From positions 34,578 through 98,577 of the forward strand of contig JACNFQ010000089.1 in NCBI GenBank assembly GCA_014384545.1: a stretch of 64,000 nucleotides of DNA, read 5' to 3'. Below, in pieces: positions 385-20,552 of this stretch (positions within the stretch are counted from its first letter, which is position 1; the number at the start of each line of letters is the position of its first letter). The notes under the pieces are model-generated. The model was not told the origin of the DNA. It worked only from the letters and a program-made list of their open reading frames with translations, and made no database searches. The translations under genes were made by a program, and so were the position numbers. The stretch comes from a bacterium. Lineage in GTDB: Bacteria; UBP7; UBA6624.

Positions 385-3279
385 CTAGAGAATCGTCGCG
401 CGGGCTAAGACGGCCCCCATATGTGCCTCGCTCTCAATAACTCCCGGGAGTTTGATTCTTTGACCAGGTCCCGTAAGAACGATGAGACACGCTCCTTGCC
501 CCATTGCTGAAGGAACCTGCCCCATCACTTCGCTACATTCCTTGGAACCTAGCGCTCTCAAGTCCACGATGGCATTTGAAAACCGATGGGTTACTGATTC
601 TCCTAATGTCTTCCTTTGGGCTTTCCTCAGTTTTGCCAAGTACGATCTTACACCTGTCTCCTCTATCTCAATCCCCGACAACCCCTTGAGGTGAAGAGAG
701 AGCCTTGTCATGGCTACTTGTAGTTTTCTGTGGTCAACCAATTTCCCCAAGTGCCTAAACCACCCCCTCAAGAAATCATCCACTTCTAGGGACTCCTCTC
801 CTTCTACAATCCGCTTGATTCTCCTTTGATCAGAGACCAACCAAACCCACGGGAATAGAAACTCCCTGCCCTCTTTTCCTTTGACCGCCAAACCATCATC
901 CGTTACGGCATAATCTGATGTTTCAAGTGTCGTTAGGAGTGTCTCAAGAACAGAAACAGCTGTCTCGCCAGAACCCGTCGGGAGAATCAGTGTGGGGGCG
1001 TCCCAAGAGATAGGTCTTTGAATCAACCATTGGGTAAAGACCTCTGTATCCATCCTTGTTGCATCTTCGCGAGAGTAGTATTTCTCGTCCAAGATACGCT
1101 GGAAAGTCTTCCAAGTAAACTCTTTCTTCATCTGCCAAGAAAGTCCTCCCAAAGCACCCCCCATTCCTCCTTCTCCTAAGAGTAATTCAAGCTCTTGAAG
1201 ATCTTGGGTTACATCTTGGTTGATTGCAATTTCTGGTTGGAAAGAGCCAAAGGCTTTGCGGAACCCCGAGTAGATTTCGGCCTCAATAAGTCCTTCTTCT
1301 CCTTGGGCAAGAATCTCCATCAAGTCGCAGGGGTCAGCCTCCTCCCACCCCGTGGAGAGGTTCAAGTCAGCGGTCTCAATGGGGCTCCACGAAAGAACCC
1401 TTTCAACGACCATTCCCCCCTTTTTCTTCGTAGCCACGCAGGCGGCGACTGATTTCCCCGTCTCGTTGAAACAACCAATCACATCTCCTTCGTTGACCTC
1501 CATCCCCGGGGGCAGTTTGAGCTTGTCACCTTCGGCAAGAGATGAGGGGGCGGTCCAAAACCATGCCCTCCTCGGTGTCCCCATCACGGGCGCAGAATAG
1601 ACCGAAAGGCGTCGTCCCAGAGAGGTCCGTCCCTCGTGGAATCGCCAGCGACCCTCTCGCGCTTCAAAAGCGAATGTACTGACAAGGGCACTTGCCAGAG
1701 CTCTTCGACTTACCCGGCGAATGAAAAGGAATCTATGGAGGAGGTCCTCAAACCCCAACCCTTCTGGATAGGCACCCAAGATCTGTCCCGCCAAGTCTGT
1801 TATCTCTTCTGCAGGAGATTCTTGGAGGCGTTGGAGTTGTTCAATCTCGGCATCCTCAAGTTGGGGAACACGAATGGGGGTCAGCACTTCCAACCTAAAT
1901 CGAGATACACTACGGTACTCCAGCGTCAGAACGGAACCCAATGCCGCAGACGCATTTATCCACGCAGCCAATCCATAGAGGACGGAATGGGCAAAATCTG
2001 CCAAGACAACGAGGCTCTCCCCTCCGGGTAACTCCACTTCAAATTCCGCCCAGTTTCCTGGAGGAACCAAAACCGCATTGAGGGCGGTTGCTAACGGGGG
2101 GGGAAGAGGGGTGACTTCATCGTTTAGGAAATCATTTAGAGTGATGATGAGAAGGGGCTCCACCCCAGGAAATCCATCTTCAGCAAAATCTCCGTCTAGC
2201 CAATAGAGAACTTCACTTTGGAGGTTGAGTAATAGATCCATCGTTAGACCTGCGTCTCCTACCAATAAGCCCTCATCCATCCCACGCTTCTTGCCACCAC
2301 CCACAATTCCCTTGTCCGTAGGAAGACCAGATGCCTTTCGCCAATAGGGGTTGTCTTCAGAAAAGCGAACTCTTACCAGCTCTCCCGCTCCTTCCTTGAC
2401 CGACAGAACATCATCCACATCCCCAAGGTACGAGGGGCTGGCTTGGTTTCTACTGGGACCAAGAAGGTAAGAAAGGAGATTCTCTCTAGATACACTCTTT
2501 GTCGGTTCTTGTGCTTCAAAGAACTGATCAATCTTCTCGCCTACTTCTTTTCGAAGGCGCTTCTCCCTCTTGCTGATTACAGTAGGTTCCTCTTTCTTTT
2601 TTGTCGTCTTCTTTCCCCACCTTCCACCCTCCATAGCAAATCGCTTATCAAGTTCGGGCTGGAAGAACGCTTGGAGATCCGTTCGGAGATGAGCCTTTTT
2701 CTCTGCTCTCTCAATAATATCTTTCTTCTTGATCGCACCCGCTTCTTGGACAATCTCCAAAGCGGGAGAGTTGACCAGTCTCCACCCCACTCGTCCCCAC
2801 AACCTACCTCGACCCTGGACTTTCTTCGCGGGGATTTCGGTTTCTGTAGCAACGCGAAAACGCTTGTCTGCCAATAACCAGAGTTTCGTTTCTCTTACTT
2901 TTTTCCCCATACTCTTAGCCACAATTGACCGAATCTTGGACTCAATCAAGAATCCTTGTTTCTCCTCCAAAACCCTCAAGGCTAGCTGGTGCGTGGGGAG
3001 ATTCTCGGGTAAAAGTTGCCATCCACCTTTCACTTTTTCCGCAAAGTTACATTTCTCTAAGAATGGGACGGCTCTCTCTCCCACAAATTGAGCCGGTGAA
3101 ACACCCGTTCGTTTAGCCAAAGGGGCAAGAACATCTTCAAGGTCCTTTTCTGGAACGGGGCTAAGAATAACCGCCCCCTCCCTATCCTGAAAATGGGCAT
3201 CTGGGTCGGGCTGAGTCTGCTCTGCCAATCGACCAATAATCAACTCACTCATTGAGAGTGCTGCATCTTGTTTAGCCAT
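385..3279 (-). CDS. Hypothetical protein, 964 aa
   Basis: I do not recognise a family for this large protein. It has no signal peptide and no clear transmembrane segment. The N-terminal 100 residues look helical and could hold a winged-helix-like unit, a lysine-rich stretch lies near residues 220-260, and the rest is a mix of acidic helices and short beta segments with no catalytic motif I can name. The ATG start was chosen because it follows a near-perfect Shine-Dalgarno (AAGGAGG, 5 nt before ATG); an upstream in-frame start lacks one. It overlaps the end of glycerate kinase by 8 nt, so the two are probably co-translated. Confidence 0.75.
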   Translation of the reverse strand: MAKQDAALSMSELIIGRLAEQTQPDPDAHFQDREGAVILSPVPEKDLEDVLAPLAKRTGVSPAQFVGERAVPFLEKCNFAEKVKGGWQLLPENLPTHQLALRVLEEKQGFLIESKIRSIVAKSMGKKVRETKLWLLADKRFRVATETEIPAKKVQGRGRLWGRVGWRLVNSPALEIVQEAGAIKKKDIIERAEKKAHLRTDLQAFFQPELDKRFAMEGGRWGKKTTKKKEEPTVISKREKRLRKEVGEKIDQFFEAQEPTKSVSRENLLSYLLGPSRNQASPSYLGDVDDVLSVKEGAGELVRVRFSEDNPYWRKASGLPTDKGIVGGGKKRGMDEGLLVGDAGLTMDLLLNLQSEVLYWLDGDFAEDGFPGVEPLLIITLNDFLNDEVTPLPPPLATALNAVLVPPGNWAEFEVELPGGESLVVLADFAHSVLYGLAAWINASAALGSVLTLEYRSVSRFRLEVLTPIRVPQLEDAEIEQLQRLQESPAEEITDLAGQILGAYPEGLGFEDLLHRFLFIRRVSRRALASALVSTFAFEAREGRWRFHEGRTSLGRRLSVYSAPVMGTPRRAWFWTAPSSLAEGDKLKLPPGMEVNEGDVIGCFNETGKSVAACVATKKKGGMVVERVLSWSPIETADLNLSTGWEEADPCDLMEILAQGEEGLIEAEIYSGFRKAFGSFQPEIAINQDVTQDLQELELLLGEGGMGGALGGLSWQMKKEFTWKTFQRILDEKYYSREDATRMDTEVFTQWLIQRPISWDAPTLILPTGSGETAVSVLETLLTTLETSDYAVTDDGLAVKGKEGREFLFPWVWLVSDQRRIKRIVEGEESLEVDDFLRGWFRHLGKLVDHRKLQVAMTRLSLHLKGLSGIEIEETGVRSYLAKLRKAQRKTLGESVTHRFSNAIVDLRALGSKECSEVMGQVPSAMGQGACLIVLTGPGQRIKLPGVIESEAHMGAVLARATIL

Positions 3280-4390
3280 TCCAACCTCCTTGGAGGGCTT
3301 TTCTTGTAGCCCGTTGAACTCTCTGACTTGCCTCAAGGGATGTGGTGGGAATATCCGTTCCCGCCGCGATGATCTTCATCCCTTTGAGCGCCTTGACCTT
3401 TGGGGGAAGCCCCGAAACATAGAGAACTCTTACCCCGTGTTGAATCGCCCGCTCTGCCAACCACCATGGTCCCTTACCCATCAAGCTCTGTTTGTCAACG
3501 ATCCCTTCTCCTGTCACAAGCCAATCTGTGTCCTCCCATTCATTGTCCAGCCCTATCTCTCGGGCGACAAATGGCGCCCCTTTCCATATCTTTCCGCCCA
3601 ATACCCCCAATCCGAGGGGGAGTCCTCCAGCGGCCCCCATTCCCTCGATATCAGAGTGTGGGATCTCTTCTTGCAGGGGCAATAATGCTCTTGCAAGGTT
3701 GCCCATTCCGGCTTCCAGCCGGCGGACAGCGGACGGGTTAGCACCTTTTTGGGGTCCGTAAACCGTCGCTGCTCCCTTTTCCCCAAGTAAGGGGTTGGCA
3801 ACATCGGCGATTATATCAAATTGAATGCCCCTTAGGGGATTTCCCCGAATGGGTGGAATCACCCGCCCTACTCTTTCCATCATTCCCCCTGATGGCTTGA
3901 GGGGTTTTCCATGGGAAGAGAGGAACTGATAACCAAGTGCGTGGAGCATCCCCATTCCCCCGTCCACCGTCGCTGTTCCACCAATACAGAGCCAAATACG
4001 CTTTACCCCAGCTTCACCAATCGCTTCCAACAGTTTGCCCACTCCCCCAGAATGGAGCTTGAGGGGGTTTCTTTCCTTGATAGGTACATGGGTCAACCCC
4101 ACCACAGTCGCAGTCTCGGCAATCCCGAGAGTTCCCTTTTCCGCTTGGCACCACCTTGCAGATACGGGATGACCCAAGGGGGTTTCGCAGAGAGCCTGCC
4201 TCCAAACCGCCTCCTTTGACTGGGCAAGGGCATCCATCGTTCCCTCTCCACCATCACCGAACAAGAGGACTTTACCTTTGAAATGGGGGCAAACTGACTG
4301 AATCCCTTTCCAAGCTGCTTCTCCTGCCTCCTTGGAGGTAAGCGTACCCTTGAAACTATCAAGAGCAACAAGGAACTTGGGAACAGTCAG
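3272..4390 (-). CDS. Glycerate kinase (GlxK/GarK family), probable CTG start
   Basis: Phosphorylates D-glycerate, feeding it into lower glycolysis. Family motifs are clear: ALDSFKGTLTSKEA near the N-terminus, GDGGEGT about 35 residues later, GGTATVDGGMGML, and VTGEGIVDKQSLMGKGP. No ATG, GTG or TTG precedes the conserved N-terminal strand: the frame is open back to a TAA at about 4411-4409, and the only plausible initiator is CTG at 4390-4388, which gives MTVPKFLVALDSFKG, exactly the expected N-terminus. This CTG lies 4 nt after the stop of the upstream secreted-protein gene. A start at the first canonical codon (4264) would delete the family's N-terminal strand. Confidence 0.85.
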   Translation of the reverse strand: MTVPKFLVALDSFKGTLTSKEAGEAAWKGIQSVCPHFKGKVLLFGDGGEGTMDALAQSKEAVWRQALCETPLGHPVSARWCQAEKGTLGIAETATVVGLTHVPIKERNPLKLHSGGVGKLLEAIGEAGVKRIWLCIGGTATVDGGMGMLHALGYQFLSSHGKPLKPSGGMMERVGRVIPPIRGNPLRGIQFDIIADVANPLLGEKGAATVYGPQKGANPSAVRRLEAGMGNLARALLPLQEEIPHSDIEGMGAAGGLPLGLGVLGGKIWKGAPFVAREIGLDNEWEDTDWLVTGEGIVDKQSLMGKGPWWLAERAIQHGVRVLYVSGLPPKVKALKGMKIIAAGTDIPTTSLEASQRVQRATRKALQGGWNG

Positions 4391-4394
4391 AAGT

Positions 4395-5303
4395 CTAGAA
4401 AATCCGGATTATTTCGCCCGTTCGGGCATCAACGGGGAGGTGTATTCTTCCTCCGGGCTCTACAACGACATTCACATCCCATGCAGGGACAAGCTCTCTA
4501 TCTTCTCCCCGCTTCCACGCCTCTTCAAGGGCGGACCAAGTGTAAACAAGACGAATACCCGTTACCTTGACCGTGGCATAGGGTTTCTCACCCAAGAGCT
4601 GTGTGTAAACGAACGAAACGACTTCTTGGGCTGCCGTGACTGCGGGAATCACTTGGGCGGGCTCTCCAAGGATGGAGGGCTCTGCTCCCCAGGACCAGTA
4701 CATCTCAAAGACGCGGGGGCCCACGACCGTGATTTGGATGTGGTCGGGGTGGAGTTGAACTCCATCGTGGCGTCGTCCATATTCAAAGAAATAGCCCAAA
4801 GGTAGCCCCAGTGCGTCCCGGCTAGATTGCACATCTCCACCCTTGATTTCACCAGAGCGAATCATCGTGGCATCTGGGGGAAGACCCCCCTCAATCCCCC
4901 CAAGAAAAAGATCTCTTATCTCTTCGGCTTCCTTTCGAGTTACAGGTCTAATCACAGCACTTGAGTGGTAGGGATAACGATAGGCAAATCCCCCATGTGG
5001 ATAGATCTCAACTTCTTGTTCGTAGGGGTTTCTGTATCGTTGCGAGCCCTGATCAATAACCCTGCTAAAGCCCATATAGGGTACGCGTTCTCTGGTAGAT
5101 CCTAAGAGAGACTCCAATAGGTTCTCTTCTTCCACTGTGGAATAGTTGATGCTGAGGTTAGAGAGTGTGGGACGGTCAACAGGTACATGGACCCCAGGAA
5201 TGACATTCAGCATAATGAAAATGTCATCCGTAGAGAGTTCGTTGGTGGCTGACCCCATCGATGCCCCCAGAAAGGCAAACAGTGTTAAGACGTTTCTCTT
5301 CAT
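4395..5303 (-). CDS. Secreted hypothetical protein, 302 aa
   Basis: The N-terminus (MKRNVLTLFAFLGASMGSA) is a typical Sec signal peptide, so the protein is exported. The mature part is mostly beta with several Tyr/Arg-rich stretches. The last 80 residues (LVYTWSALEE, then LVPAWDVNVVV and VDARTGEIIRIF) resemble the two-domain periplasmic YycH/PepSY-like style of protein, but this is only a similarity of pattern. No catalytic residues are recognisable. It is the first gene of the three-gene minus-strand unit with glycerate kinase and the 964-aa protein. Confidence 0.7.
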   Translation of the reverse strand: MKRNVLTLFAFLGASMGSATNELSTDDIFIMLNVIPGVHVPVDRPTLSNLSINYSTVEEENLLESLLGSTRERVPYMGFSRVIDQGSQRYRNPYEQEVEIYPHGGFAYRYPYHSSAVIRPVTRKEAEEIRDLFLGGIEGGLPPDATMIRSGEIKGGDVQSSRDALGLPLGYFFEYGRRHDGVQLHPDHIQITVVGPRVFEMYWSWGAEPSILGEPAQVIPAVTAAQEVVSFVYTQLLGEKPYATVKVTGIRLVYTWSALEEAWKRGEDRELVPAWDVNVVVEPGGRIHLPVDARTGEIIRIF

Positions 5304-5507
5304 CTAGGGGAGTTTACCTTATTCAGCCCCACCATAGCGATAAAGGGAAAGGGAACAATCTGGCGTCCTCCTCCAATCCGTTATTAGGCGGGGGGCTGTG
5401 GCTCTCCGTTAGCCCGAGGGTTGTGGATCTCCGAGCCACCATTTCGGGTGCTCCGGCGCAGAGCCAGACGCAAGCGTCCTTCTCTGGCCCCCGTCCCTCA
5501 TGTCCAC

Positions 5508-5541
5508 GCCCCCGTTGCCCTCCCTTCGGGGTGAGAGGATT
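5508..5541. repeat. Direct repeat copy A (stray 3' end of tRNA-Pro)
   Basis: 34 bp that recur at 5594-5627 with one mismatch, 86 bp apart. The second copy contains the 3' acceptor strand and part of the T arm of tRNA-Pro; this copy is a detached fragment of that end. The rest of 5304-5507 holds no gene I can support. Confidence 0.8.
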
Positions 5542-5593
5542 GCGTGCTTCGCACAGGACTCCACCCCTGCGGTCGGTCCCGTGGACGCTACGC

Positions 5594-5627
5594 GCCCCCG
5601 CTGCCCTCCCTTCGGGGTGAGAGGATT
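5594..5627. repeat. Direct repeat copy B (contains the tRNA-Pro 3' end)
   Basis: Partner of the 34-bp repeat at 5508-5541; this copy includes the genuine 3' end of tRNA-Pro. Confidence 0.8.
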
Positions 5628-5686
5628 CGAACCTCCGACCTCCGCATCCCGAATGCGGCGCTCTGACCAGGCTGAGCCACACCCCG
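5612..5686 (-). tRNA. tRNA-Pro (anticodon CGG)
   Basis: On the minus strand the sequence folds as a normal cloverleaf: acceptor CGGGGTG/CACCCCG, D arm with GCTC/GAGC, anticodon stem CCGCA/TGCGG with loop TTCGGGA, T arm GGAGG TTCGAAT CCTCT, discriminator A. The anticodon CGG reads CCG. CCA is not encoded. It sits in the only gap over 300 bp in the window and is flanked by duplicated pieces of itself. Confidence 0.95.
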
Positions 5687-5762
5687 TGGCAAGGGGTGAT
5701 TCTAAAAGTAGCCGCATTCGGGGTGGAACATCCCGGACCACGGCGTAGCCGGGGTTAGCCAC
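5658..5762. repeat. 105-bp tandem repeat, copy 1 (tRNA-Pro 5' part plus upstream region)
   Basis: Covers the 5' part of tRNA-Pro, its promoter and about 60 bp upstream. It recurs at 5791-5895 with three mismatches at an offset of 133 bp. Confidence 0.9.
5699..5728 (-). promoter_or_regulatory. Probable promoter of tRNA-Pro
   Basis: Minus strand: TTCCAC, 18-nt spacer, then TAGAAT (-10), ending 12 nt before the tRNA 5' end. A hairpin CACCCC/GGGGTG lies between promoter and tRNA and uses the tRNA 5' strand as one arm. The same promoter sequence is repeated 133 bp away. Confidence 0.45.
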
Positions 5763-5790
5763 GCACTGCGAAGCAGGGTGTGGCAATCAG

Positions 5791-5895
5791 GCGCTCTGAC
5801 CAGGCTCTGCCACACCCCGTGACAAGGGGTGATTCTAAAAGTAGCCGCATTCGGGGTGGAACATCCCGGACCACGGCGTAGCCGGGGTTAGCCAC
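5791..5895. repeat. 105-bp tandem repeat, copy 2 (truncated tRNA-Pro and duplicated promoter)
   Basis: Second copy of the 5658-5762 unit. It carries the promoter and only the first ~29 nt of tRNA-Pro, then diverges, so it cannot make a tRNA. Positions 5896-6001 hold no further recognisable feature. Confidence 0.9.
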
Positions 5896-6001
5896 TGTGG
5901 ATACTCGGGCGACACAATGAGCTCAATCTCTTACCGCTTGGACCTTTATCTCCCAAAGAGGTTCTCTTCGTGGCACACGGATAGGGCATAGGATGGGCTT
6001 G

Positions 6002-6214
6002 ATGAAAGTAAAACACTTTATGGAATCTGGAATCGGTTATCGTGTTCCACCTCTTGATATCTCTATTAATGAGTGGCTAGAAGAGATGGGCTCATCCATT
6101 CAAATCGTTGAGGTTAAGTACTCAACCTCTACCACCACGGCCTCCCAAGAAGACTTCGTTGCCAGTGAAACGGTCGTTGTGGCGGGAGCACTTGTCCTCT
6201 ACAAAGAAACCTAG
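6002..6214 (+). CDS. Small Cse60/DUF2758-like protein, 70 aa
   Basis: The pattern MKVKHF...INEWLEEM...IQIVEVKYSTST...VVVAGALVLYKE matches the small Cse60-like family: an alpha/beta protein with a conserved N-terminal MKVK strand, an N-x-[FW]-L helix, an I-x-Y-S strand and a final [AL]-I/V-L-Y-K-E strand. The family is best known from spore-formers but its biochemical role is unknown to me. The start at 6002 is preferred over an in-frame ATG at 5993 because family members begin at MKVK and an AGGA lies about 8 nt upstream. It overlaps the following rsmA gene. Confidence 0.65.
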   Translation: MKVKHFMESGIGYRVPPLDISINEWLEEMGSSIQIVEVKYSTSTTTASQEDFVASETVVVAGALVLYKET

Positions 6215-7040
6215 TCCCCGCTTTGTTCAAGAGGGTCCTTCTTTTTGGGAGGGTTTACACCAAGAAGCAAAAGGTTACTTTTCTTCTTTTGGTCGCTCAC
6301 AATCATTAGGTCAGAACTTCCTCGTTGACCCCTTTGCCCTCCACGCCATCTCTCTATTGATTGAGGCTCGTCCCTCTCCTTGGACTGTAGAGGTAGGGGC
6401 TGGACTGGGGTTTTTAACACGCGGTCTCTCCCACAGACCTCACCTCACCCTCTTTGAGCTGGATCTCTCTCTATTGTCACGCCTGTCGTCCCACTTTCCA
6501 AACGCTTCCCTTTTGGGTGACTTTAGGGATTGGGACGCATCAAGTGCCCCCCCAAACGGACTCCTCGTGGGAAATATTCCCTACTCTCTTTCGGGTTCCG
6601 TTCTCTCTCTGTTGGCTCGGTACCCATCACGCTTTATCGGTAGCATTCTTACGCTTCAGCGAGAGGTCGCCCAGCGCGTGGCGGCACCGATACATACGAA
6701 GCGCCGAGGTCTTTTATCTGGTCCTCTCCAAGCGATCTACAACGTGGAAGTCGCCCGACGACTGCCCCCTGGTGTGTTTGCACCACCTCCTCGTGTTCAC
6801 TCCGCTGTTTTGGTTCTAGATAGGAACGAAATCTTTCCAGATGACAAATGGGCCCATAATCACCTTGCTCTGATGAAACTCGCTTTCTCACAGCGGCGGA
6901 AAAAGGTGGCAAACCTCTTGTCTCATGTGCTTCCGGAAAAGTGCCTCAACGAGATTCCTGATGGAGCGCGTGCCGAAGATCTTCCCACATCCCTGTCCCT
7001 CCACCTCTCCTCTTTTTTTCAGCCCAAGAAAACGTCTTAG
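6192..7040 (+). CDS. rsmA: 16S rRNA dimethyladenosine transferase RsmA/KsgA
   Basis: Dimethylates two adjacent adenosines near the 3' end of 16S rRNA during small-subunit maturation, using SAM. The protein shows the family's LGQNFLVD substrate motif, the SAM-binding VEVGAGLGFLTRGLS, the catalytic GNIPYSLSG (NIPY), and a C-terminal FSQRRKK. The first ~25 residues are poorly conserved, so the start is uncertain; TTG at 6192 with GGGAG just upstream is chosen, overlapping the Cse60-like gene by 23 nt. Its stop overlaps the stop of the convergent FlxA-like gene by 4 nt. The coding strand is C/T-rich, as expected for a plus-strand gene left of the origin. Confidence 0.9.
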   Translation: MSSTKKPSPRFVQEGPSFWEGLHQEAKGYFSSFGRSQSLGQNFLVDPFALHAISLLIEARPSPWTVEVGAGLGFLTRGLSHRPHLTLFELDLSLLSRLSSHFPNASLLGDFRDWDASSAPPNGLLVGNIPYSLSGSVLSLLARYPSRFIGSILTLQREVAQRVAAPIHTKRRGLLSGPLQAIYNVEVARRLPPGVFAPPPRVHSAVLVLDRNEIFPDDKWAHNHLALMKLAFSQRRKKVANLLSHVLPEKCLNEIPDGARAEDLPTSLSLHLSSFFQPKKTS

Positions 7041-7849
7041 TCGTTTAGCCCTAAAGCATCCTCTGAAAGGTCTCGCAAAGTCGCCAAATCAAAAACGGGG
7101 CCTCTGGTCCAAATGTTGACACCAGCCAAGAGGTCTTGGTTGCTCCACCCCAAACCCGTGGTCCAGTTCCTGTTGACGAGGAAATAGATATCCTTGTCGC
7201 GAAGTCTTGACTTTTCTAAGATGCCCATTAGAACCTTTTGGAAGGGCCTCGTTCCTCCAACGGCTGCTCCTACCATGCCCTGGAGAATCTTCTTCTTCAT
7301 AATCTGATCTCTGAGAAAGGTCTCCCAAGGTTGATTCCCCCTGTCTTTACTCGCAATCAGGTGGACTTGGATGGGAGAACTTTCCTCTGAAGCTTTCTCC
7401 AGCGCTTTCGCCAAGACCGGGTTCTCCTTATCCGTTGTCAGATGAGTGATAACGACCTCTTTTCCCTGTGCCAATAGAGCATTTACCAGCCCGCGTTGGG
7501 CGGCTAGCCCCATATCCATGGAGAAGAGCCCTATCTTTCCCTCGGGCCATCCCTCTGTCGGAAGACCATTCCCATACGGTCCCCTTAGCCCTAAAGCCTG
7601 TCCCTCAGAAAGAAGGAATAGGCGATGTGTAACGCTATCCACGTCTTGGAGAGAAACCCCAAAACAGTCTTTGCTAACCTCCGAAACGACCCCTGTCGTT
7701 TCCCCCCGCCCAAAAACTGATATCTTGAAACCTTGTCCGGGAGTGATTGGTGAAAACCCCTCTCTTGAAAAGAAGAGGGTCAGCACACCTCCCCCTTCCT
7801 CTTGTATCGACTCAATCGAATGGATGTGAGGAATAAGGGGATCTGTCAT
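7037..7849 (-). CDS. FlxA/HydG/AsrB-like subunit lacking all [2Fe-2S] cysteines
   Basis: Homologous to the FNR-fold subunits (FlxA, sulfhydrogenase gamma, AsrB) that bind FAD and NAD(P)H and pass electrons to a C-terminal [2Fe-2S] centre. LRGPYGNG (88-95) and GPVFDL (250-255) are conserved. The four cysteines of the cluster motif align without gaps to T231, S236, D239 and W247, so no cluster can form. The FAD-binding RxYS region is replaced by TTGVVSEVS (51-59), and the nucleotide loop GGxGxAP reads SMDMGLAAQ (110-118). It overlaps the FlxB-like gene by ATGA and is last in the operon. Its normal length (270 aa) and intact frame argue against decay. Homology is firm; any redox function is unclear. 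Confidence 0.75.
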   Translation of the reverse strand: MTDPLIPHIHSIESIQEEGGGVLTLFFSREGFSPITPGQGFKISVFGRGETTGVVSEVSKDCFGVSLQDVDSVTHRLFLLSEGQALGLRGPYGNGLPTEGWPEGKIGLFSMDMGLAAQRGLVNALLAQGKEVVITHLTTDKENPVLAKALEKASEESSPIQVHLIASKDRGNQPWETFLRDQIMKKKILQGMVGAAVGGTRPFQKVLMGILEKSRLRDKDIYFLVNRNWTTGLGWSNQDLLAGVNIWTRGPVFDLATLRDLSEDALGLND

Positions 7850-8865
7850 CCGAAATCTACACCTTGAATGATCTTCCTGACATCATGTTTTGTGGGCATC
7901 GCCGCCACACATCTATGTGCACCTGAACAACCCAGAAATCCATGTCTCTTGGGGAAGTAAAGGAACATCTCCAGAAGCCAGTCTCTTATCCTCTCCTTCA
8001 TCCCGGGTCGATAGTCGTCCCCATCGGGTAGTCGAGAGTATCCTGGGGCATGAGGGTGCGTCCAAACTCTGTACCGTGTTCCTTGGTGACCTTTGGGGAC
8101 ATCTATAAATCGAAATTGGGTTCCCGAGTAGAAATACCGACTGATCGCTGCACTGGGAATCATCCCCAAGTAGACCTCGTCCCAGTAAGGTAATGCCAAA
8201 ATCTCGGCATCCGAAAACTCTTCCCACCGCTCCAGTTCTAGAGATTGATCGGTAGATCCCCGTACCCCCGCCTTTGCTTTTCGGGCATCTTCGCGATGGT
8301 CGGATTCTGCGGGATTGAACTGGTCAGTAATCAAGGCCATCCCCCGCTCGGTCAATACTTGGACATAGTAGGTTCTACCTAAATCGGTAAGGAGCATATC
8401 TACCCCCTCTTCAGGGAAAAGATCCACCCCGACCGACTCAGCAAAGCAACACGGTGGCGGGTTGTGGTAACCCACACAGATTATGGCACTATTCTCTCTC
8501 CTAGCCTTGTACCGTTCATCGGTCACATCCCCCATCCAATACGCATCCATAATCTCCAACCCTCTTACATCGGGTGGTCGCATGCCAAAAATAACCCTAG
8601 GAGTCGTGTCGGGCGGTTTGGGTGTAATCTCGACTTTGTCTGGAAGAATATCATAGGAGAAGATCTCTTCGCGAGGAGGAAAGAAAATCGCCTTAGGAGA
8701 TTCCTTCGTATTCGTATACTCGGTAATCACTTCTTCGCCCAGAGGGTTCCGGGTAAAGTGCAAGCTACCCTCCTTACCCGTGGGTGCCCAAACCTCTTGG
8801 CTCAATCTAAGATCGTCCAACCAGTAGCGAAGTTTCGCTTTCGCAAAGATGAAATCCGCAATCAC
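7846..8865 (-). CDS. FlxB/sulfhydrogenase-beta (AsrA-like) subunit with most cluster cysteines replaced
   Basis: Homologous to the di-[4Fe-4S] subunit that links FlxA-type proteins to HdrA (FlxB, HydB, AsrA). The N-terminal domain keeps the family pattern GMRPPDVRGLEIMDAYW and LLTDLGRTYYVQV. The first ferredoxin-like motif, normally CLGCGACTYVCPTCYC, aligns gaplessly with residues 232-247 (YLGMIPSAAISRYFYS): all six cysteines are lost. In the second motif C313 and C319 remain, but the other two ligands are A316 and M323, followed by the usual Pro. An odd CC pair sits at 139-140. GTG start in a GTGA overlap with the upstream FlxC-like gene. It may still bind a flavin or another metal, but not two standard clusters. 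Confidence 0.75.
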   Translation of the reverse strand: MIADFIFAKAKLRYWLDDLRLSQEVWAPTGKEGSLHFTRNPLGEEVITEYTNTKESPKAIFFPPREEIFSYDILPDKVEITPKPPDTTPRVIFGMRPPDVRGLEIMDAYWMGDVTDERYKARRENSAIICVGYHNPPPCCFAESVGVDLFPEEGVDMLLTDLGRTYYVQVLTERGMALITDQFNPAESDHREDARKAKAGVRGSTDQSLELERWEEFSDAEILALPYWDEVYLGMIPSAAISRYFYSGTQFRFIDVPKGHQGTRYRVWTHPHAPGYSRLPDGDDYRPGMKERIRDWLLEMFLYFPKRHGFLGCSGAHRCVAAMPTKHDVRKIIQGVDFG

Positions 8866-9752
8866 TGTTCTATCTTCCTTGAGAGTGTTAGAGGATTGTC
8901 TCCACGGTCTCCTGGACGGTAATCAAAAATGCGTCGGAAATGGCGTGACGACCAAGCTCGGATTGCTGAAACAGGTACTTTTCCTCTTTCTGTACCCAAA
9001 TCAGAAAGGTCAAAACCAGACAGCCTTCCCAATCCCTGGTAGACCCAACATAGGTGCTGAAAAAAGAGATCTTCGGGACTGTAGTCACCTCGAACAAGCC
9101 CCGTCTCGGTCAGGTGGTCCCCCCCACCATAAGTAGACGGGAAATGAGAAATAGTCTCATTTACTGGTGATGCTGAGCCAAACATCTCTAACCAATGTGC
9201 TCGTCTTTGTGGGTGGGTCATGTGGGAGAGTCTCTCTAGGTTTGTTCTTCCTAGGTCAGGTTTTTCCTTGTTCTCAAGATCAAACATCCACCGGGGTTCA
9301 ACCAATAGGTCACATTCTTCGGGTTTTTCAAAAAGATCGTGCCAACTCCACTCCCAAAGAGCTTCTGGGCAATCAGGGAAGGTTATCTGATTCTCGTTAC
9401 TCCTTGAAACCAAAACACGGTTGGGGTCTAGATACCCTGTAAACCGGACGCCAATAATGTGGAGGTTTTCTCTTTTAACGAGCCCATCCTTGACCAACTC
9501 CTTGATTGAACGCACCACGGCAGGGGTAGCAACAATTCCTACTTTTCCCTGAATCCCAGGAAGGTATGTAGCTAGGTTTAAGGTGGAGAAACAGTTAAAG
9601 ACGAGGGATTGAACATCGTCGGGGCGGAATGCAAAACAGGGAGCCGTCGTGCCCGGGTATGGACCCACTTGATACCCAATAACGACACTCACGTAGTCTC
9701 GTTTTAGGAGACGTCTTGCCTCCCTCTGAATACTGATTCTTAGTTCGTTCAT
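8862..9752 (-). CDS. FlxC/FdhB-like 4Fe-4S-protein homologue lacking the cluster cysteines
   Basis: The central part (CDLLVEPRWMFDLE, 147-160, then GRTNLERLSHM and RRAHWLEMF) is diagnostic of the ferredoxin-type subunit found with HdrA and FlxA/B genes. Directly after WLEMF, members of this family carry RCIRCYACRxxCPxCYC. Here the aligned stretch (193-209, SASPVNETISHFPSTYG) keeps Pro205 and Tyr208 but has A, V, T, F, T and G in the six cysteine positions. The second cluster motif is also lost (GRLSGFDLSDLG). A Gly/Tyr-rich N-terminal domain is retained. ATGA overlap with the HdrA-like gene upstream. The intact frame and length suggest selection for the fold rather than for electron transfer through clusters. 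Confidence 0.7.
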   Translation of the reverse strand: MNELRISIQREARRLLKRDYVSVVIGYQVGPYPGTTAPCFAFRPDDVQSLVFNCFSTLNLATYLPGIQGKVGIVATPAVVRSIKELVKDGLVKRENLHIIGVRFTGYLDPNRVLVSRSNENQITFPDCPEALWEWSWHDLFEKPEECDLLVEPRWMFDLENKEKPDLGRTNLERLSHMTHPQRRAHWLEMFGSASPVNETISHFPSTYGGGDHLTETGLVRGDYSPEDLFFQHLCWVYQGLGRLSGFDLSDLGTERGKVPVSAIRAWSSRHFRRIFDYRPGDRGDNPLTLSRKIEQ

Positions 9753-12097
9753 TCGTTAAAACCTAACGGTCCTAGCGCCTGAATACCCTTGCTGAACTCC
9801 TGGAGGGTTTCTCGGAGTTCTCTAATCTGATGAGGCCCCATAAACGCTACCTTTATTCTGTTGGGTTCGATACCTGCTCCATCCATTACGCCCTCTAAGG
9901 CACGAAATCGTCTCATAGCCAAGTAGTTATCTTGGTGGAACCTACCTTCACCGAGGGGTCCTGCTAAGATGAGAACCCCATCAGCACCTCCCAAGAGTGT
10001 CTTGAGAACGAGGAGGGGGTCTAGATGTGCCGAGGATCGAACACGTAAGAATCGATACGATGAACTGTATCCTTGTCTCTCCCTCCCCAACATCTCCAGA
10101 AGTGGATACCCGCCAAACTGCGTAGCAAAACCTGTAATCCGAGGTTTCCAGATCGTTCCCAATCCATCACTCCAAAGTGACTCTATTTCTGCAAGAGCCT
10201 TACCCATCTCCCACCCCCTTAGCTCCACATTTCTGGTGGGGCTAGCAGGAACGGATGCCCCACTCTCTGTTCCCCCCTCTCCAGCAACCCGAATGCGTTG
10301 AGACAATGTGCCCTCATTTGTCACTTCAAATTGCTCTGGAGAAACACGAGCACAATCTCGGTCATATCGACTCTCTTCTCTCGACCTAAGAATCAGTTTG
10401 TGTGGACTCCCTTTTTTTTTTCCTAAAACCCCAAGTGCTTTGGCCGCTGCCGCTTCAGCAGAAATCACTGCAGTTCGGATATCCCCGGGAGACGTGCAGT
10501 CTCCCGCCACGAAGACACCATCATTGTTCGTTGCGCAAGGATCCAATGCAGGGTGGGTTTCCTTCAAAAACCCACTCTTGTCAACCCCAACCTGAACAAG
10601 TTCTGACAACATCGCTGTTTCATCGTGAGGTACAGCCTCCGTCACTAAAACCACACCATTCGCCCTAAGGCGACGTTCGCCACCCTGCAAAATATCATGA
10701 ACGACCACAACGGAACCTCCCGCCTGTGGTGAAACCTGAGAAGAGGCACCTCGAATCAGTTCCACTCCATATTCTTCAACAGCGGTCCTAAGAAACTCCC
10801 TATACCCTCTTGTGTGAGCTCGAAGATCTTTGTAAACGACCGTACATGAACAATCGGGGTGATTCTTCTTGACCATAATCGCTTGCTTTGCTGCAATCAT
10901 GAGGGGTATCTCGGTCGCATAGGGTACCCCCTTTTGGGGATCATCACTACCAACATCTGTTAGCCAAACAAGAGACTGAGGAGCCTTCCCCCCCAAGAGT
11001 ATCTCACCTTGAGTTGGTCCACCCGAAGAGAGAATTCTTTCAAATCCTTCCGCCGAAAAACTCCCCTCCGCACTCGGGTTTAGGTGCTGTAACGAAGAAG
11101 GGTCAAATCTCTTTGATCCCACAGCAAGAATGATCGCTCCCACCCTTTCGTGTACAACCTTCTCTTTTTCGTTGGGGTCAATCGCTCCCTCTTCTAAAAG
11201 GGATGTTGCCCCAGAGAGGGCACCTTTGATGTGGTCGGGGTCTACCAGAGGGTCGTCTGGTACCGCACCGGGAAAGGGGAGATAGAGAGCCGCCCTCATG
11301 GAAAGCCCCTCTTGATAACTATCTGGGATATTCTTAGGCAACGCCTCCATCGCTTTTTCCAACCCCTCCAACTTGTTCTTGTCAACGAATCTTGGTTTCT
11401 TATGAATATCCACTTCGTAGTTGCCCGGAACTCCCGATATCGAGCCCACTTCACTATAAGCATAAACCTCAATGTTTTCACTTTGGTGGCATTCCAACAT
11501 CAACTGTCGCGCCAACCCTTGGGCTTCATCCAGTCGTGGCCACAGTCGATCTAACTGAACCAATCTACCCCCCAAAGAGGGTGCCCTCTCAACTAAGACC
11601 ACCCCATACCCCCCTTTGGCTAGGCGAAGTGCTGCTGTCATCCCAGCGACCCCACCACCCACCACCAAAACCTGCTGTTCCACCCGAATGTGCTCACTCT
11701 CTATAGGTTTGCCTTGCTGTGTTCTCTTTACAGCTGTGCGCAAGAGTTGGAACGCTTTTTCTGTCGCTTCATCCTTATCTTCATGGACGAAGGCAACCAT
11801 CTCTTTTAGGTTAACGACTTCCACAAGGTGCGGGTTGATTCCTTTACTTTCTAGTGCCGCCTTGATCGTTGCCTCTCCCCTCTCTAACGACCCCCCACCC
11901 ACAACGACATACGCAAGAGCTTCTTCTTGGGCAACACGCCCCATTTCCTCTAGCCCCGCTACCGTATTGATGTCGTCATGTAGGTGAACATGGTCCACTT
12001 CTTGGAGTTCGTCCTCTAGCCGGTGAGCAATCCCTTCTAAGTCCAAGACTTCAAGGTCTCCCCCTTCTCTACTAATAAACACACCTATTTTGCTCAT
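9749..12097 (-). CDS. HdrA-MvhD fusion-type flavoprotein lacking every Fe-S cysteine
   Basis: A 782-aa homologue of heterodisulfide reductase subunit A fused to an MvhD/FlxD domain; HdrA is the flavin-bifurcating core of such complexes. The FAD motifs are intact: VLVVGGGVAGMTAA (143-156) and DGVFVAGDC (526-534). Cluster motifs are lost by substitution: N-terminal CHCG is SREG (9-12); KCTGCGLCAEVCP aligns gaplessly with 242-254, C to L243, L246, A249 and L253; the second ferredoxin motif before GAID (304-307) has no Cys; QCVGS...PYCSRVCCM has D381, A394, P398 and L399. The C-terminal MvhD domain (about 650-775) has T659, G662, S688, G713 and G718 in place of its [2Fe-2S] cysteines. ATGA overlap with tatC. 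Confidence 0.8.
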   Translation of the reverse strand: MSKIGVFISREGGDLEVLDLEGIAHRLEDELQEVDHVHLHDDINTVAGLEEMGRVAQEEALAYVVVGGGSLERGEATIKAALESKGINPHLVEVVNLKEMVAFVHEDKDEATEKAFQLLRTAVKRTQQGKPIESEHIRVEQQVLVVGGGVAGMTAALRLAKGGYGVVLVERAPSLGGRLVQLDRLWPRLDEAQGLARQLMLECHQSENIEVYAYSEVGSISGVPGNYEVDIHKKPRFVDKNKLEGLEKAMEALPKNIPDSYQEGLSMRAALYLPFPGAVPDDPLVDPDHIKGALSGATSLLEEGAIDPNEKEKVVHERVGAIILAVGSKRFDPSSLQHLNPSAEGSFSAEGFERILSSGGPTQGEILLGGKAPQSLVWLTDVGSDDPQKGVPYATEIPLMIAAKQAIMVKKNHPDCSCTVVYKDLRAHTRGYREFLRTAVEEYGVELIRGASSQVSPQAGGSVVVVHDILQGGERRLRANGVVLVTEAVPHDETAMLSELVQVGVDKSGFLKETHPALDPCATNNDGVFVAGDCTSPGDIRTAVISAEAAAAKALGVLGKKKGSPHKLILRSREESRYDRDCARVSPEQFEVTNEGTLSQRIRVAGEGGTESGASVPASPTRNVELRGWEMGKALAEIESLWSDGLGTIWKPRITGFATQFGGYPLLEMLGRERQGYSSSYRFLRVRSSAHLDPLLVLKTLLGGADGVLILAGPLGEGRFHQDNYLAMRRFRALEGVMDGAGIEPNRIKVAFMGPHQIRELRETLQEFSKGIQALGPLGFNE

Positions 12098-12822
12098 GCT
12101 GTTACCCCTCGGTGAATAGATTGAACCACTTTGTAAGAAATCCCCAACAGAAGGAGGATTGGGCCCGCCAAGAGAACTTGGCTAACCACATCCGGTGGTG
12201 TCAGGAGTGCTGCCATAACAAATGTCAATACAATCAAGTGCCCCGCCTTCTGTTTAAAAAAGAGTGGCGTAAGTAAGCCGATTCTAGCCAATAGCCCACA
12301 AATGACGGGCAACTCAAACGCCAAAGCCGCCCCCCCGACAATGCCTTGGACAAAACCCAACCACGCTGAGAATGTCCAAACAGGCTCCAAACCATGCGAT
12401 AATCCGAACCGAAAGAGAAATCCTGAGGAGACTGGAAGAAGAACAGACCACCCAAACCAAGAACCTAATACCAACATCAGAATTGCGGGCAAAAAGACCC
12501 ATTTGAGTCCTGCCACCTCTTTCTCCTTTAGCCCTGGGCGAACAAAGAGGACGATTTCTCGGACCCAAACCGGAAGAGAAAGGAGGGCACCCCCCGTCAG
12601 GGCAAGTCTCACCACAGATAGGAATGCTTCTTGGGGTGAGAGAATGTGTAAAGAGACCTCAAACTTCTCTATGGGTATCTTGAGGGCGTCCAGTAGCACC
12701 CCTGCTTTCCACCCCACAAGAAGGGTCGCAACGAGCCAAGCAAGGAGCGACCGAATTAGCCCACCCCTCAAATCCCCCAAGTGCTCAACGAGTGGTCTGG
12801 GTTGGTCCTCTTTGGAGGTCAG
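12094..12822 (-). CDS. tatC: Twin-arginine translocase subunit TatC, probable CTG start
   Basis: Polytopic membrane protein that recognises twin-arginine signal peptides and exports folded proteins with TatA. Several hydrophobic helices and the typical periplasmic-loop and C-terminal helix patterns are present. TatC normally begins with a short tail leading into P-L-x-E-H-L-x-E-L-R; that segment (RPLVEHLGDLRG) is encoded here but lies before the first canonical start (TTG at 12780). The only suitable initiator is CTG at 12822-12820, which overlaps the tatA stop as CTGA, mirroring the NTGA overlaps elsewhere in this operon. It is followed by the HdrA-like gene through an ATGA overlap. Confidence 0.85.
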   Translation of the reverse strand: MTSKEDQPRPLVEHLGDLRGGLIRSLLAWLVATLLVGWKAGVLLDALKIPIEKFEVSLHILSPQEAFLSVVRLALTGGALLSLPVWVREIVLFVRPGLKEKEVAGLKWVFLPAILMLVLGSWFGWSVLLPVSSGFLFRFGLSHGLEPVWTFSAWLGFVQGIVGGAALAFELPVICGLLARIGLLTPLFFKQKAGHLIVLTFVMAALLTPPDVVSQVLLAGPILLLLGISYKVVQSIHRGVTA

Positions 12823-13040
12823 GGCAAAGGTGGTTCTTCTTCTTCTACTACAGAACCGTCCTCAACGCTCTTCTTGATCTCCTTTTCCCCCTCTTTCAGC
12901 CCCCCTTTGAACTCCCCCACAGATGCCCCAATAGATCGGGCAAACTCCTTTATCTTTCCTGGACCAAAGAAGATGAGCGCCACAACCGCAATCACCACAA
13001 TCTCTGTTGTTCCGAACCCTACACCCAATAGAAATGGCAT
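12819..13040 (-). CDS. tatA: Sec-independent translocase TatA
   Basis: 73-aa TatA/E protein: one N-terminal transmembrane helix (GTTEIVVIAVVALIFFGPG), the FGPGK hinge, an amphipathic helix (KIKEFARSIGASVGEFK) and an acidic tail. It forms the translocation pore with TatC, encoded immediately downstream. No TatB is seen, so this is a minimal TatAC system. It follows the E3 gene by 29 nt. Confidence 0.93.
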   Translation of the reverse strand: MPFLLGVGFGTTEIVVIAVVALIFFGPGKIKEFARSIGASVGEFKGGLKEGEKEIKKSVEDGSVVEEEEPPLP

Positions 13041-13069
13041 TCTTGTTCCTCCTACCCTCTTATCCTAAT

Positions 13070-14446
13070 CTAGATATGTAGTGCCCCCATATCTGTAGCC
13101 GCTAGGGCTGCTTCCTTGAGCGATTCAGATAATGTGGGGTGGGCATGAACGAGGATGCCCATATCTTCGGCATCACCCCGAAAGCCCATTGCCATTACAG
13201 CCTCTCCAATAAGTTCAGAGGCGTGTGGGGCTAAGAGATGAACGCCAAGAATCTCTCCCCCCTCTCTTGCGGCAACGACCTTTGTCATCCCCTCCGTCTC
13301 TCCCAGAGCTGTTGCTCGCCCCGAGGCGACGAGTGGAAAAACCCCCACACGGGTCTCTATTCCCTTGTCATTTGCCTCCTTCTCTGTCATCCCCACAGCC
13401 GCGAACTCGGGGTCGGTATAGACGACTGTCGGTATGTGGTCATATTCCATTCTTGCCCTCTTGCCAGAAATCGTCTCGGCTGCAACAACACCCTCTTCGC
13501 TCGCTTTGTGGGCCAACATCGGACCAGGAACAAGATCTCCTATGGCATAGATTCCCTTTGTGGTCGTTTCCATCTCTTCGTTCACAAGAACAAACCCACG
13601 ACCATCCGTTTCTACACCAAGAGCCGCTAGGTCAATCCCTCCATTCGAAGGCTTCCTCCCCACTGCAACTAGGACATAGTCCACTTCAACAACCCCCTCC
13701 TCTTCTCCACTTCTCCAACTTAGTTCTGCCCCTTTTTCTCCCACTTTGACCCCTGTCGCCCCCGTCCCTGTCCTTATCTGCATTCCCCCTTTTAGCAGTC
13801 TCTTTCTAAGGGCTCTTGCTAATTCCTTGTCCATTGTAGGGAGTATTTCATCCTCCCACTCAAAAAGGGTCACTTTCGTTCCTGCTCTATGATAAACAGA
13901 ACCCAACTCCAACCCGATTGCCCCTCCGCCAATCACAGCAAGTCTTTGGGGCACTTCTTTCAGTTCAAGAGCAACCGTAGAGTCAATCACCCTCTTGTTA
14001 CCGAAGGGAACTGCGGGCAATGCCATGGGTGTGGATCCTGTAGCCAAGACGATTGTCCGGGTTGAAAGTCTCTCTTCTCCCACAACGACCGAACCCGGCG
14101 CTGGAATCGTTGCTGTTCCTCTAATGACAACGACTCCCGCTTTTTTCAAGAGATGCCCCACACCACCAGATAACTTGGCAACGACCTTCGCCCGTCTCTT
14201 TTGTAATATGGTCCAATCTAGAGAAAGTCCTTTAGAGATGATTCCGTGTTTTCCGCCCTCCATTGCCCTCTGAAAAATCTCCGTAGTATCAAGAAGAGTC
14301 TTGCTGGGGATACAACCGGTATTCAAACAGACCCCACCCAGTTTCTCTCTTTCCACGAGGGCTGTCTTAAGCCCCAACTGTGCCGCCCGCAGAGCGGAGA
14401 CATACCCCCCCGGACCGCCCCCCACAATCGTGATGTCGTACGTCAA
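13070..14446 (-). CDS. lpd: Dihydrolipoyl dehydrogenase (E3)
   Basis: FAD enzyme that reoxidises dihydrolipoamide on E2 with NAD+. Visible motifs: Rossmann GGGPGGYVSALRAA, redox disulfide GGVCLNTGCIPSK, NAD-binding IGGGAIGLELG, FAD motif YAIGDLV, and the C-terminal active-site HAHPTLSE. Length of 458 aa is normal. It begins with TTG in a TTGA overlap with the E2 gene, so the complex subunits are translationally coupled. Confidence 0.96.
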   Translation of the reverse strand: MTYDITIVGGGPGGYVSALRAAQLGLKTALVEREKLGGVCLNTGCIPSKTLLDTTEIFQRAMEGGKHGIISKGLSLDWTILQKRRAKVVAKLSGGVGHLLKKAGVVVIRGTATIPAPGSVVVGEERLSTRTIVLATGSTPMALPAVPFGNKRVIDSTVALELKEVPQRLAVIGGGAIGLELGSVYHRAGTKVTLFEWEDEILPTMDKELARALRKRLLKGGMQIRTGTGATGVKVGEKGAELSWRSGEEEGVVEVDYVLVAVGRKPSNGGIDLAALGVETDGRGFVLVNEEMETTTKGIYAIGDLVPGPMLAHKASEEGVVAAETISGKRARMEYDHIPTVVYTDPEFAAVGMTEKEANDKGIETRVGVFPLVASGRATALGETEGMTKVVAAREGGEILGVHLLAPHASELIGEAVMAMGFRGDAEDMGILVHAHPTLSESLKEAALAATDMGALHI

Positions 14447-15687
14447 CGCAATGGCCCCGTGGCTAGGAATCCGGGTTGCTCCAAAATCTCCTTGACCCTA
14501 ATAAGAAAGTTCACAGCTCTAACACCATCCACAATGCGGTGGTCACTGGCAAGGGAAAGGTAGACCATCGGCCTCGCCTCTATCCTGCCCCCTACAACAA
14601 CGGCTCTCTCTTTGATGGTATGTATGCCTAGGATGGCGACTTGGGGTTGGTTGATAATGGGGCTGGAAAAGAGAGGACCTCCAAACATCCCCGCATTCGT
14701 AATCGTGAATGTTCCCCCTGTAATCTCATCTAGGGTTAGTTTCCCCTCTCGCGCTCTATGAGACAGTCTGTTTATCTCTTGGGATAATCCCAATAGGTCA
14801 TAGTGATCTGCATCCTTAACGACAGGAACGATTAGGTCTCCCCCCACACTCGCTGCCATCCCAATATCTCTCCCACCATGGAAAACGATTTCATCCCCCT
14901 CCACCGATGCGTTGAGACGCGGAAACTCTTGTAGCGCTTTTGCAGCTGCTCGGACAAAAAAGGGCATCAATGTCAATCGAATGCCTTCTTTTTCGTTCTT
15001 CTTCTTCAGTCTATTGTAGATAGCGAGCGTTCCACTGATATCCGCTTCGTCCACGATGTGGAAATGGGGACTTGTAGCTACCGATGAAACCATATGTTTC
15101 GCCATCGCTTTGACGGGGTTGGTCATCTTTTCTCGGTAGGTCTCATTGGGTCGCTCCGTTTCGCCACCTCCAACGCTTTTTTCTACATCGGATAACATCA
15201 CTCGACCCTTCGAACCGCTACCCCTTATCAAGCGAATCTCTACCCCCATTTCTGTAGCTCTCTTGCGGGCAGCAGGGCTTGAAAGAACCCGTCCTCCTTT
15301 TGTTGGGGCACTTGGGTCTCTTCCTTTCCTTTCTCTTTTCTTCGTGGTTGGTCTCGCTTTCTCCTTCTTACCTTCGCCTTCTTCTTTTGGGGGGTCTTCT
15401 TCCTCTTTGCCTGCCCAAACTTGAGCTTCTTTTTGGGTCAGTCGCTCTCCCTTGAGTGAAATAACCCCAATCGTAGAGCCGACCTTGACGACATCCCCCT
15501 CAATAGCAAAAAGTGCTGCAATCTCTCCCGCTTTGAAGGCAGTAAGCTCCTGTGTAATCTTGTCTGTTTCCAACTCGCCAATAGGCTCATCTCTTGTGAC
15601 GGTATCTCCGACGCCTTTTTTCCATTTTCCAACGGTCGCCTCCACGACAGATTCTCCCAGTTCAGGTACGAGGATTTGGATGGGCAT
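14443..15687 (-). CDS. 2-oxoacid dehydrogenase E2, lipoyl acyltransferase
   Basis: Core of the 2-oxoacid dehydrogenase complex. One N-terminal lipoyl domain with the lipoylated lysine in LETDKITQE (about residue 43), a charged flexible linker (90-130), a peripheral subunit-binding domain (VLSSPAARKRATEMG) and a C-terminal catalytic domain ending with SDHRIVDGVRAVNFL, which contains the catalytic His and Asp. The lipoyl domain resembles that of 2-oxoglutarate E2, but the E1 is the two-subunit pyruvate/branched-chain type, so substrate is not certain. Start ATG overlaps the E1-beta stop (TAATG). lipA and lipB lie in the same operon. Confidence 0.92.
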   Translation of the reverse strand: MPIQILVPELGESVVEATVGKWKKGVGDTVTRDEPIGELETDKITQELTAFKAGEIAALFAIEGDVVKVGSTIGVISLKGERLTQKEAQVWAGKEEEDPPKEEGEGKKEKARPTTKKRERKGRDPSAPTKGGRVLSSPAARKRATEMGVEIRLIRGSGSKGRVMLSDVEKSVGGGETERPNETYREKMTNPVKAMAKHMVSSVATSPHFHIVDEADISGTLAIYNRLKKKNEKEGIRLTLMPFFVRAAAKALQEFPRLNASVEGDEIVFHGGRDIGMAASVGGDLIVPVVKDADHYDLLGLSQEINRLSHRAREGKLTLDEITGGTFTITNAGMFGGPLFSSPIINQPQVAILGIHTIKERAVVVGGRIEARPMVYLSLASDHRIVDGVRAVNFLIRVKEILEQPGFLATGPLR

Positions 15688-17805: not shown

Positions 17806-17815
17806 CCTTGGGATT

Positions 17816-18673: not shown

Positions 18674-19296
18674 AGTCGCCCCCTAAGGATTTCACCAATA
18701 CGCCGAGCCACTAGAGAGAGATCCTCTTTCCTCTCCCCGTTGATTGAAGTCATATCTTGAGAATCTTTCCCACAGGGTCTAATCTGTGGGGGGGAATCAC
18801 ACCCCCTAATGTTCAAGGAAAAACCGTGGAGTGACAGATGTCCCAACAGAGCCATCCCCACCGAGCCAACCTTCTTCCCAGATTGGAGGGTGATGGCAGG
18901 ATTGTCACCCCGAAAGGTAGCATCCGTACCCGCTTCTCTTATCCATTGAACGAGGCTTTCTCCCACAACAGACACCAGTGCGCTTGGTGACAATCTCCTT
19001 CTCTTTAGATCAATGATTGGGTATCCCACAATCTGCCCCCTTCCATGCCACGTAGCACGCCCTCCCCTTCGTGCCCGCAGCAACGCCAGTCCATTCTTTC
19101 TTGTTTCTATTGTCTTCGGTTCCTCTCTCTGCGGGGTTGCCCGACCCAAGGTTACAACGGGTAGATGTTCAAAGAATAGAACCTCATCCATTCCCCCTAC
19201 CTTTACCCGAGAAACTGCTTCGTATTGTCTTCTTAGCCCCACACTCCACGGCGCGCTAATAAGTGGATGTATCTGGAGGTTATTCTTGGGGGCCAC
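18670..19296 (-). CDS. lipB: Octanoyltransferase LipB
   Basis: Moves octanoate from acyl carrier protein to lipoyl domains. Motifs: RGGRATWHGRGQIVGYPIIDL (active-site region with the conserved RGG and H-G) and KVGSVGMALLGHLSLHGFSLN, whose Lys is the usual catalytic lysine. A short cysteine-containing GCDSPPQIRPCG segment supplies the acyl-accepting Cys region. GTG start overlaps the leuC end by 17 nt. Operon position before lipA gives a self-contained lipoylation module for the adjacent E2. Confidence 0.93.
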   Translation of the reverse strand: MAPKNNLQIHPLISAPWSVGLRRQYEAVSRVKVGGMDEVLFFEHLPVVTLGRATPQREEPKTIETRKNGLALLRARRGGRATWHGRGQIVGYPIIDLKRRRLSPSALVSVVGESLVQWIREAGTDATFRGDNPAITLQSGKKVGSVGMALLGHLSLHGFSLNIRGCDSPPQIRPCGKDSQDMTSINGERKEDLSLVARRIGEILRGRL

Positions 19297-20548: not shown

Positions 20549-20552
20549 GGTA

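Follow-up and report, generated by a model that had tools for sequence, protein, structure and literature searches.

An Flx-Hdr-like complex of UBP7 bacteria that has lost nearly all iron-sulfur ligands and is conserved beside pyruvate dehydrogenase and lipoylation genes

Our comparative analysis demonstrated, as judged by gene and protein sequences, that four overlapping genes of UBP7 bacteria encode a complex derived long ago from Flx-Hdr, present throughout the lineage as represented by the three genomes available and kept under strong purifying selection alongside the pyruvate dehydrogenase/lipoylation operon. The genes are otherwise strongly conserved, yet nearly every cluster ligand has been exchanged, so that the UBP7 complex probably serves another purpose than its Flx-Hdr relatives.

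The four open reading frames lie on the minus strand, from 12097 to 7037, of the window, i.e., the whole 64,000-nucleotide stretch of DNA that was analysed. The first encodes HdrA fused to MvhD/FlxD (9749–12097, 782 aa), and it is followed by the genes of FlxC-like (8862–9752, 296 aa), FlxB-like (7846–8865, 339 aa), and FlxA-like (7037–7849, 270 aa) subunits. Upstream of hdrA, on the same strand, are the genes for a LeuC-like aconitase-family protein (19280–20620), the octanoyltransferase LipB (18670–19296), the radical-SAM lipoyl synthase LipA (17816–18673), the E1 alpha (16705–17841) and E1 beta (15687–16745) subunits of a 2-oxoacid dehydrogenase, the lipoyl E2 acyltransferase of the 2-oxoacid (pyruvate) dehydrogenase complex (14443–15687), dihydrolipoamide dehydrogenase (Lpd; 13070–14446), whose disulfide motif GGVCLNTGC is intact, and TatC (12094–12780). 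The NTGA overlaps recorded in the initial annotation were confirmed as ATGA or GTGA at every junction of the four genes, including the ATGA between tatC and hdrA. Elsewhere in the window, a minus-strand segment (385–5303) encodes a 983 aa protein with no NCBIfam match, a glycerate kinase, and a 302 aa protein with no Pfam or NCBIfam match; this order, next to ksgA, is kept in the other UBP7 genomes.

The locus was compared among three UBP7 genomes of two genera, with completeness of 62–86% and estimated contamination of 0.01–2%. They comprise the metagenome-assembled genome of the window (1.39 Mb, 79% complete, 0.01% contaminated) and the sources of two other records of the same family, DLTY01000002.1 (UBP7_UBA7824) and PBAU01000002.1 (SP4379), which are also metagenome-assembled. 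Kinship with these two is the ground for taking the window to belong to candidate phylum UBP7; a search for 16S rRNA yielded none. The order leuC-lipB-lipA-pdhABC-lpd-tatC followed by the four genes is repeated in one of the other genomes (G001); in the third (G002), the contig starts inside the E2 gene and the order agrees from there onward. The four-gene set therefore co-occurs in both other genomes with the same order and flanks, tatC being the neighbour of hdrA in each, and its frames and lengths are intact in both.

The proposed homology of the four genes to HdrA-MvhD and Flx proteins was upheld. HdrA matched NCBIfam HdrA2 with 449 bits, which falls far short of that family's 1100-bit cut-off, and its MvhD/FlpD domain was recognisable. 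FlxB matched the sulfhydrogenase beta/AsrA family and FlxA the AsrB/PyrK/HydG family. FlxC had no significant family match in Pfam or NCBIfam, and it aligned end to end with FlxC from cluster-bearing operons. An initial scan of genome contigs with HdrA alone gave no match; FlxC profile searches revealed that many non-UBP7 bacteria have the order hdrA-flxD-flxC-flxB-flxA, frequently preceded by hdrB/hdrC-like genes. From this shared gene order and the alignment of HdrA to solved structures, we conclude that the UBP7 genes descend from an Flx-Hdr complex. The HdrA-MvhD matches at five loci in other genomes read through one in-frame stop codon, TGA, or TAG in genome G042, which suggests that the HdrA/MvhD junction either contains selenocysteine or separates two neighbouring genes.

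Ligand columns were defined by alignment to 9–23 cluster-bearing homologues per subunit. This yielded 67 cysteine columns, mostly occupied by cysteine in every homologue; one of the five in FlxA belongs to the CGPP motif of the NAD site and is no cluster ligand. Cysteine was present in all three UBP7 genomes at only 3 of these 67 columns, all in FlxB. No conserved cysteine was left at the 26 columns of HdrA, the 5 of MvhD, the 16 of FlxC (all substituted), or the 5 of FlxA, while 12 of the 15 in FlxB were substituted. A fourth column holds cysteine in the window alone (HdrA C582, one of three genomes), and the other 63 are substituted or, at two columns of the C-terminal ferredoxin domain, gapped. 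The earlier claim that ligands were replaced in every subunit without gaps thus stands for nearly all columns; the exceptions are the three cysteines kept by FlxB (C140, C313, and C319), the two gapped columns, and C582. The three genomes share an identical residue at 42 of the 67 former cysteine columns, counting the three retained cysteines. Extra conservation near the former ligand columns was found in FlxB and weakly in FlxA; none was found in HdrA and FlxC.

Per-column inspection disposed of the possibility that the family never had these cysteines, since outside homologues of the same operon type carry them in nearly all these columns; the closest homologues outside UBP7 do so as well, and the family therefore did have clusters. 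A changed genetic code is unlikely, as cysteine is present in LipA, LeuC, NuoI, and other proteins and the substitutes are diverse. No cluster-free relative stood out among 386 genomes across the domain and 264 from two other phyla. These phyla were picked because their gene for the type II topoisomerase B subunit most resembled that of the window, which says little about kinship. The best FlxC score in these roughly 650 outside genomes was 93 bits, versus 600–651 bits inside UBP7.

The cluster-free state is accompanied by strong constraint. Between the two closer genomes, dN/dS was 0.040 for HdrA, 0.020 for FlxC, 0.033 for FlxB, and 0.036 for FlxA; these Nei-Gojobori values are approximate, as synonymous sites are nearly saturated. 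For reference, Lpd gave 0.038, TatC 0.031, KsgA about 0.07, a conserved hypothetical protein (hyp307) 0.11, and glycerate kinase 0.18; the four genes thus have lower values than the last three, whose genes flank them. Identity between the two genera was 51% for HdrA, 60% for FlxC, 56% for FlxB, and 37% for FlxA, comparable to that of the operon neighbours Lpd, E2, LipA, and TatC (54, 56, 51, and 34%, respectively). UBP7 HdrA formed one clade on a long stem branch of 1.26 substitutions per site, a tree shape that reads as large change first and constraint afterwards.

These data bear on two readings that would deprive the substitutions of meaning. If the operon were decaying, with pseudogenisation beginning by cluster loss once the lineage had turned aerobic, the disappearance of nearly all redox functions and the long stem branch would be accounted for. 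However, the frames are open in all three genomes, dN/dS is far from 1 and lower than in flanking housekeeping genes, and the cluster-free state is older than the split of two genera whose HdrA proteins are 51% identical; decay is very unlikely. An artefact of assembly, contamination, or alignment might be suspected because all three sources are metagenome-assembled genomes, but DLTY01000002.1, PBAU01000002.1, and the window are independent, share order, flanks, and substitutions at 37–60% identity, and have estimated contamination of at most 2%, which makes this explanation hardly credible. Conservation of the operon between genera, together with dN/dS of 0.02–0.04, thus indicates that the genes are neither decaying nor artefactual, in agreement with the initial proposal of a selected, cluster-free version of the complex.

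Many other iron-sulfur proteins of these bacteria are intact. Within the operon, LipA retains both cysteine motifs and LeuC its ligands in SCTN and CGPC, as previously noted from their sequences. Elsewhere in UBP7, intact [4Fe-4S] ligands were found in NuoI, which has both CxxCxxCxxxC motifs, in SdhB, a ferredoxin, GlcF, and the beta subunits of two molybdoenzymes. A genome-wide loss of iron-sulfur proteins was therefore rejected, and general iron avoidance is unlikely; going by ligand motifs, cluster loss among the proteins examined is specific to the Flx-Hdr-like complex. HdrB, as sought by its CCG domains, was not found in the three UBP7 genomes. The sole CCG-domain protein was a GlcF-like protein in G000, with none in G001 and G002, and no HdrC gene lies beside the UBP7 operon. 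The complex had been called complete; HdrA-MvhD, FlxC, FlxB, and FlxA are indeed all present, but with HdrB not found a complete Hdr is not. The genomes are 62–86% complete, and the absence of HdrB is therefore not final; the same holds for NuoF, whose NADH_4Fe-4S domain was not found in any of the three.

The presence of a COX1 gene indicates that the UBP7 host probably respires oxygen. A complex I operon in G000 (contig C21, segment 3000–22000, positions 4644–13867, minus strand), with a counterpart on contig C3 of G001, carries NuoB-, C-, D-, H-, I-, J-, K-, L-, and M-like genes next to one another and no NuoE/F/G; this complex I is possibly headless and fed by ferredoxin. Two molybdoenzyme-like operons were also observed in G000. 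The operon on contig C28 (19–4650) belongs to the type II DMSO-reductase family and encodes an 883 aa molybdoenzyme-like protein, a beta subunit that scored 258 bits against TIGR03478, below the cut-off, and further subunits; it is a candidate nitrate/nitrite- or hydrocarbon-type oxidoreductase. The operon on contig C74 (2604–7258) has a Tat-type signal, and its products include a membrane subunit and an ArrB/DsrO-like, four-cluster beta subunit.

The flavin site of HdrA has survived the loss of clusters. Residues 17–561 of HdrA align with residues 23–568 of the solved structure 5odc (E = 4e-91), and the FAD residues G147, G149, G152, E170, G176, G177, E353, K404, R449, G450, H515, P537, D539, and I540 are kept in all three UBP7 genomes. 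Position 533 is aspartate in UBP7 and not in the homologues, which creates a GD motif of the kind usual in flavoproteins. The cysteines C203, C521, and C534 are invariant in UBP7 HdrA, and C534 is also common in cluster-bearing HdrA. E353 and K404 correspond to E356 and K409 of 5odc, which act at the flavin N5 (PMC12054007). FlxA retains its FAD motifs GQ..GxGE..RGPxGN, while its [2Fe-2S] motif is erased and its NAD(P)H motifs GGGIGLAP and CGPP are replaced; NAD(P)H binding is therefore doubtful. AlphaFold2 models of HdrA and FlxB, built from three-row alignments, reached pLDDT values of 39 and 29, too low for use.

FlxB differs from the other subunits at two of its former cluster sites, which carry the invariant residues C130/H134/C139/C140 and H308/C313/H317/C319/H327. 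All five invariant cysteines and all four invariant histidines of FlxB fall within these two segments, and six of the nine residues (C130, H134, C139, H308, H317, and H327) are absent from these columns in homologues; H317 stands where each of the 16 homologues has glycine. Conservation of FlxB is 0.69 near the former ligand columns versus 0.50 elsewhere, a level reached by 12 of 339 circular shifts. Both the clustering of new residues and the raised conservation would be expected if these sets bound zinc or another mononuclear metal, giving FlxB a structural or catalytic role. We consider such remetallation rather improbable as an account of the complex, since it is based on the sequences of three genomes and HdrA, FlxC, and FlxA have no comparable sets. 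A metal newly bound by FlxB could coexist with a flavin-only as well as with a scaffold function.

Most likely, the genes encode a complex that works through flavin alone or as a scaffold and is linked to the pyruvate dehydrogenase/lipoyl operon. From the established mechanism of Flx-Hdr and HdrABC, electrons would be unable to pass between subunits once the clusters are gone, and this would rule out bifurcation, NADH oxidation by FlxA, and reduction of ferredoxin or heterodisulfide. The HdrA flavin would be left with local two-electron chemistry only, and the three Flx subunits and the MvhD domain could serve as a docking scaffold. The likeliest partner of the HdrA flavin would be a thiol/disulfide substrate of the lipoyl system, because the ancestral fold is of the thioredoxin-reductase type, C203, C521, and C534 are invariant, and the operon contains lipA, lipB, E2, and Lpd. 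We hold the flavin-only role tentatively, as something just short of probable; the lipoyl-system substrate is a doubtful guess at present, for which the sharing of an operon with pdh and lip genes is suggestive.

Nearly as likely as flavin chemistry is a role as scaffold or regulator of pyruvate dehydrogenase. The complex could be a structural or regulatory pseudoenzyme in which the Flx-Hdr architecture is kept as a scaffold, tether, or sensor of pyruvate dehydrogenase and FAD serves only for folding or sensing. This agrees with the loss of the electron wiring and the NAD site, with the failure to find the catalytic HdrB, and with the operon common to pdh and lip genes in UBP7 genomes; the frequent invariance of substituted positions is also expected of packed cores and interfaces. 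However, a passive scaffold needs neither an invariant, full flavin site with the N5 lysine and glutamate nor a GD motif absent from homologues. We regard a pseudoenzyme as possible, if on balance unlikely. The complete FAD site of HdrA favours the flavin-only role over a purely structural one, without proving it.

Single clusters have been lost in many proteins. To our knowledge, no large electron-transfer complex has been described in which clusters are lost from all subunits and yet the whole remains under strong selection. In speculative terms, UBP7 would present a wholesale conversion at about 60 ligand positions, with the architecture kept, of a bifurcating multi-cluster complex into a flavin-only, perhaps zinc-bearing, thiol/disulfide oxidoreductase or a control module of the pyruvate dehydrogenase/lipoyl system in an oxygen-respiring lineage. 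Our study raises the question of what use an Hdr/Flx scaffold has without its electron wires, illustrates a route for keeping anaerobic machinery after a shift to oxygen, and supplies natural cluster-free ferredoxin-type and MvhD folds. Profile-based annotation would mislabel the UBP7 complex as an NADH/ferredoxin/heterodisulfide enzyme, which it cannot be.

This study also places the UBP7 genes among known Hdr systems. A search of open-licence papers found no published cluster-free Hdr/Flx complex, in line with the earlier view that the system is undescribed. FlxABCD-HdrABC occurs in sulfate reducers and other anaerobes, where it acts as an NADH dehydrogenase/heterodisulfide reductase (Ramos et al. 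2015, cited in PMC10553843). UBP7 shares with it homologous HdrA, FlxD, FlxC, FlxB, and FlxA in the same order and the HdrA FAD site with the N5 lysine and glutamate. In contrast, UBP7 HdrA and FlxD are fused, HdrB and an adjacent HdrC gene were not found, nearly all iron-sulfur ligands and the FlxA NAD(P)H motifs are gone, the host has COX1, and the genes share an operon with pyruvate dehydrogenase. The C-terminal MvhD and the domain order are those of HdrA type Ia and HdrA2, the best NCBIfam match (PMC12054007, PMC5296606). In methane-metabolizing archaea, the described HdrA classes are told apart mostly by how many clusters they have and where these lie, and cluster domains are often gained or lost (PMC12054007); unlike these classes, UBP7 HdrA keeps all domains yet conserves no ligand cysteine. 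The FAD-adjacent cysteines C386, C399, C403, and C404 of HdrA from Methanothermococcus thermolithotrophicus (5odc) are D381, A394, P398, and L399 in the window, all invariant in UBP7. The sHdr system is an Hdr-like pathway of sulfur oxidation with the lipoate-binding protein LbpA (PMC6067878). There, too, lipoylation genes neighbour the gene of an Hdr-type protein, and the organism has an oxidase; in UBP7, however, HdrB was not found, clusters are absent, and the lipoyl protein is the normal E2 of the pyruvate dehydrogenase operon. The four-gene set of UBP7 is a new, lineage-specific variant of the Flx-Hdr complex.
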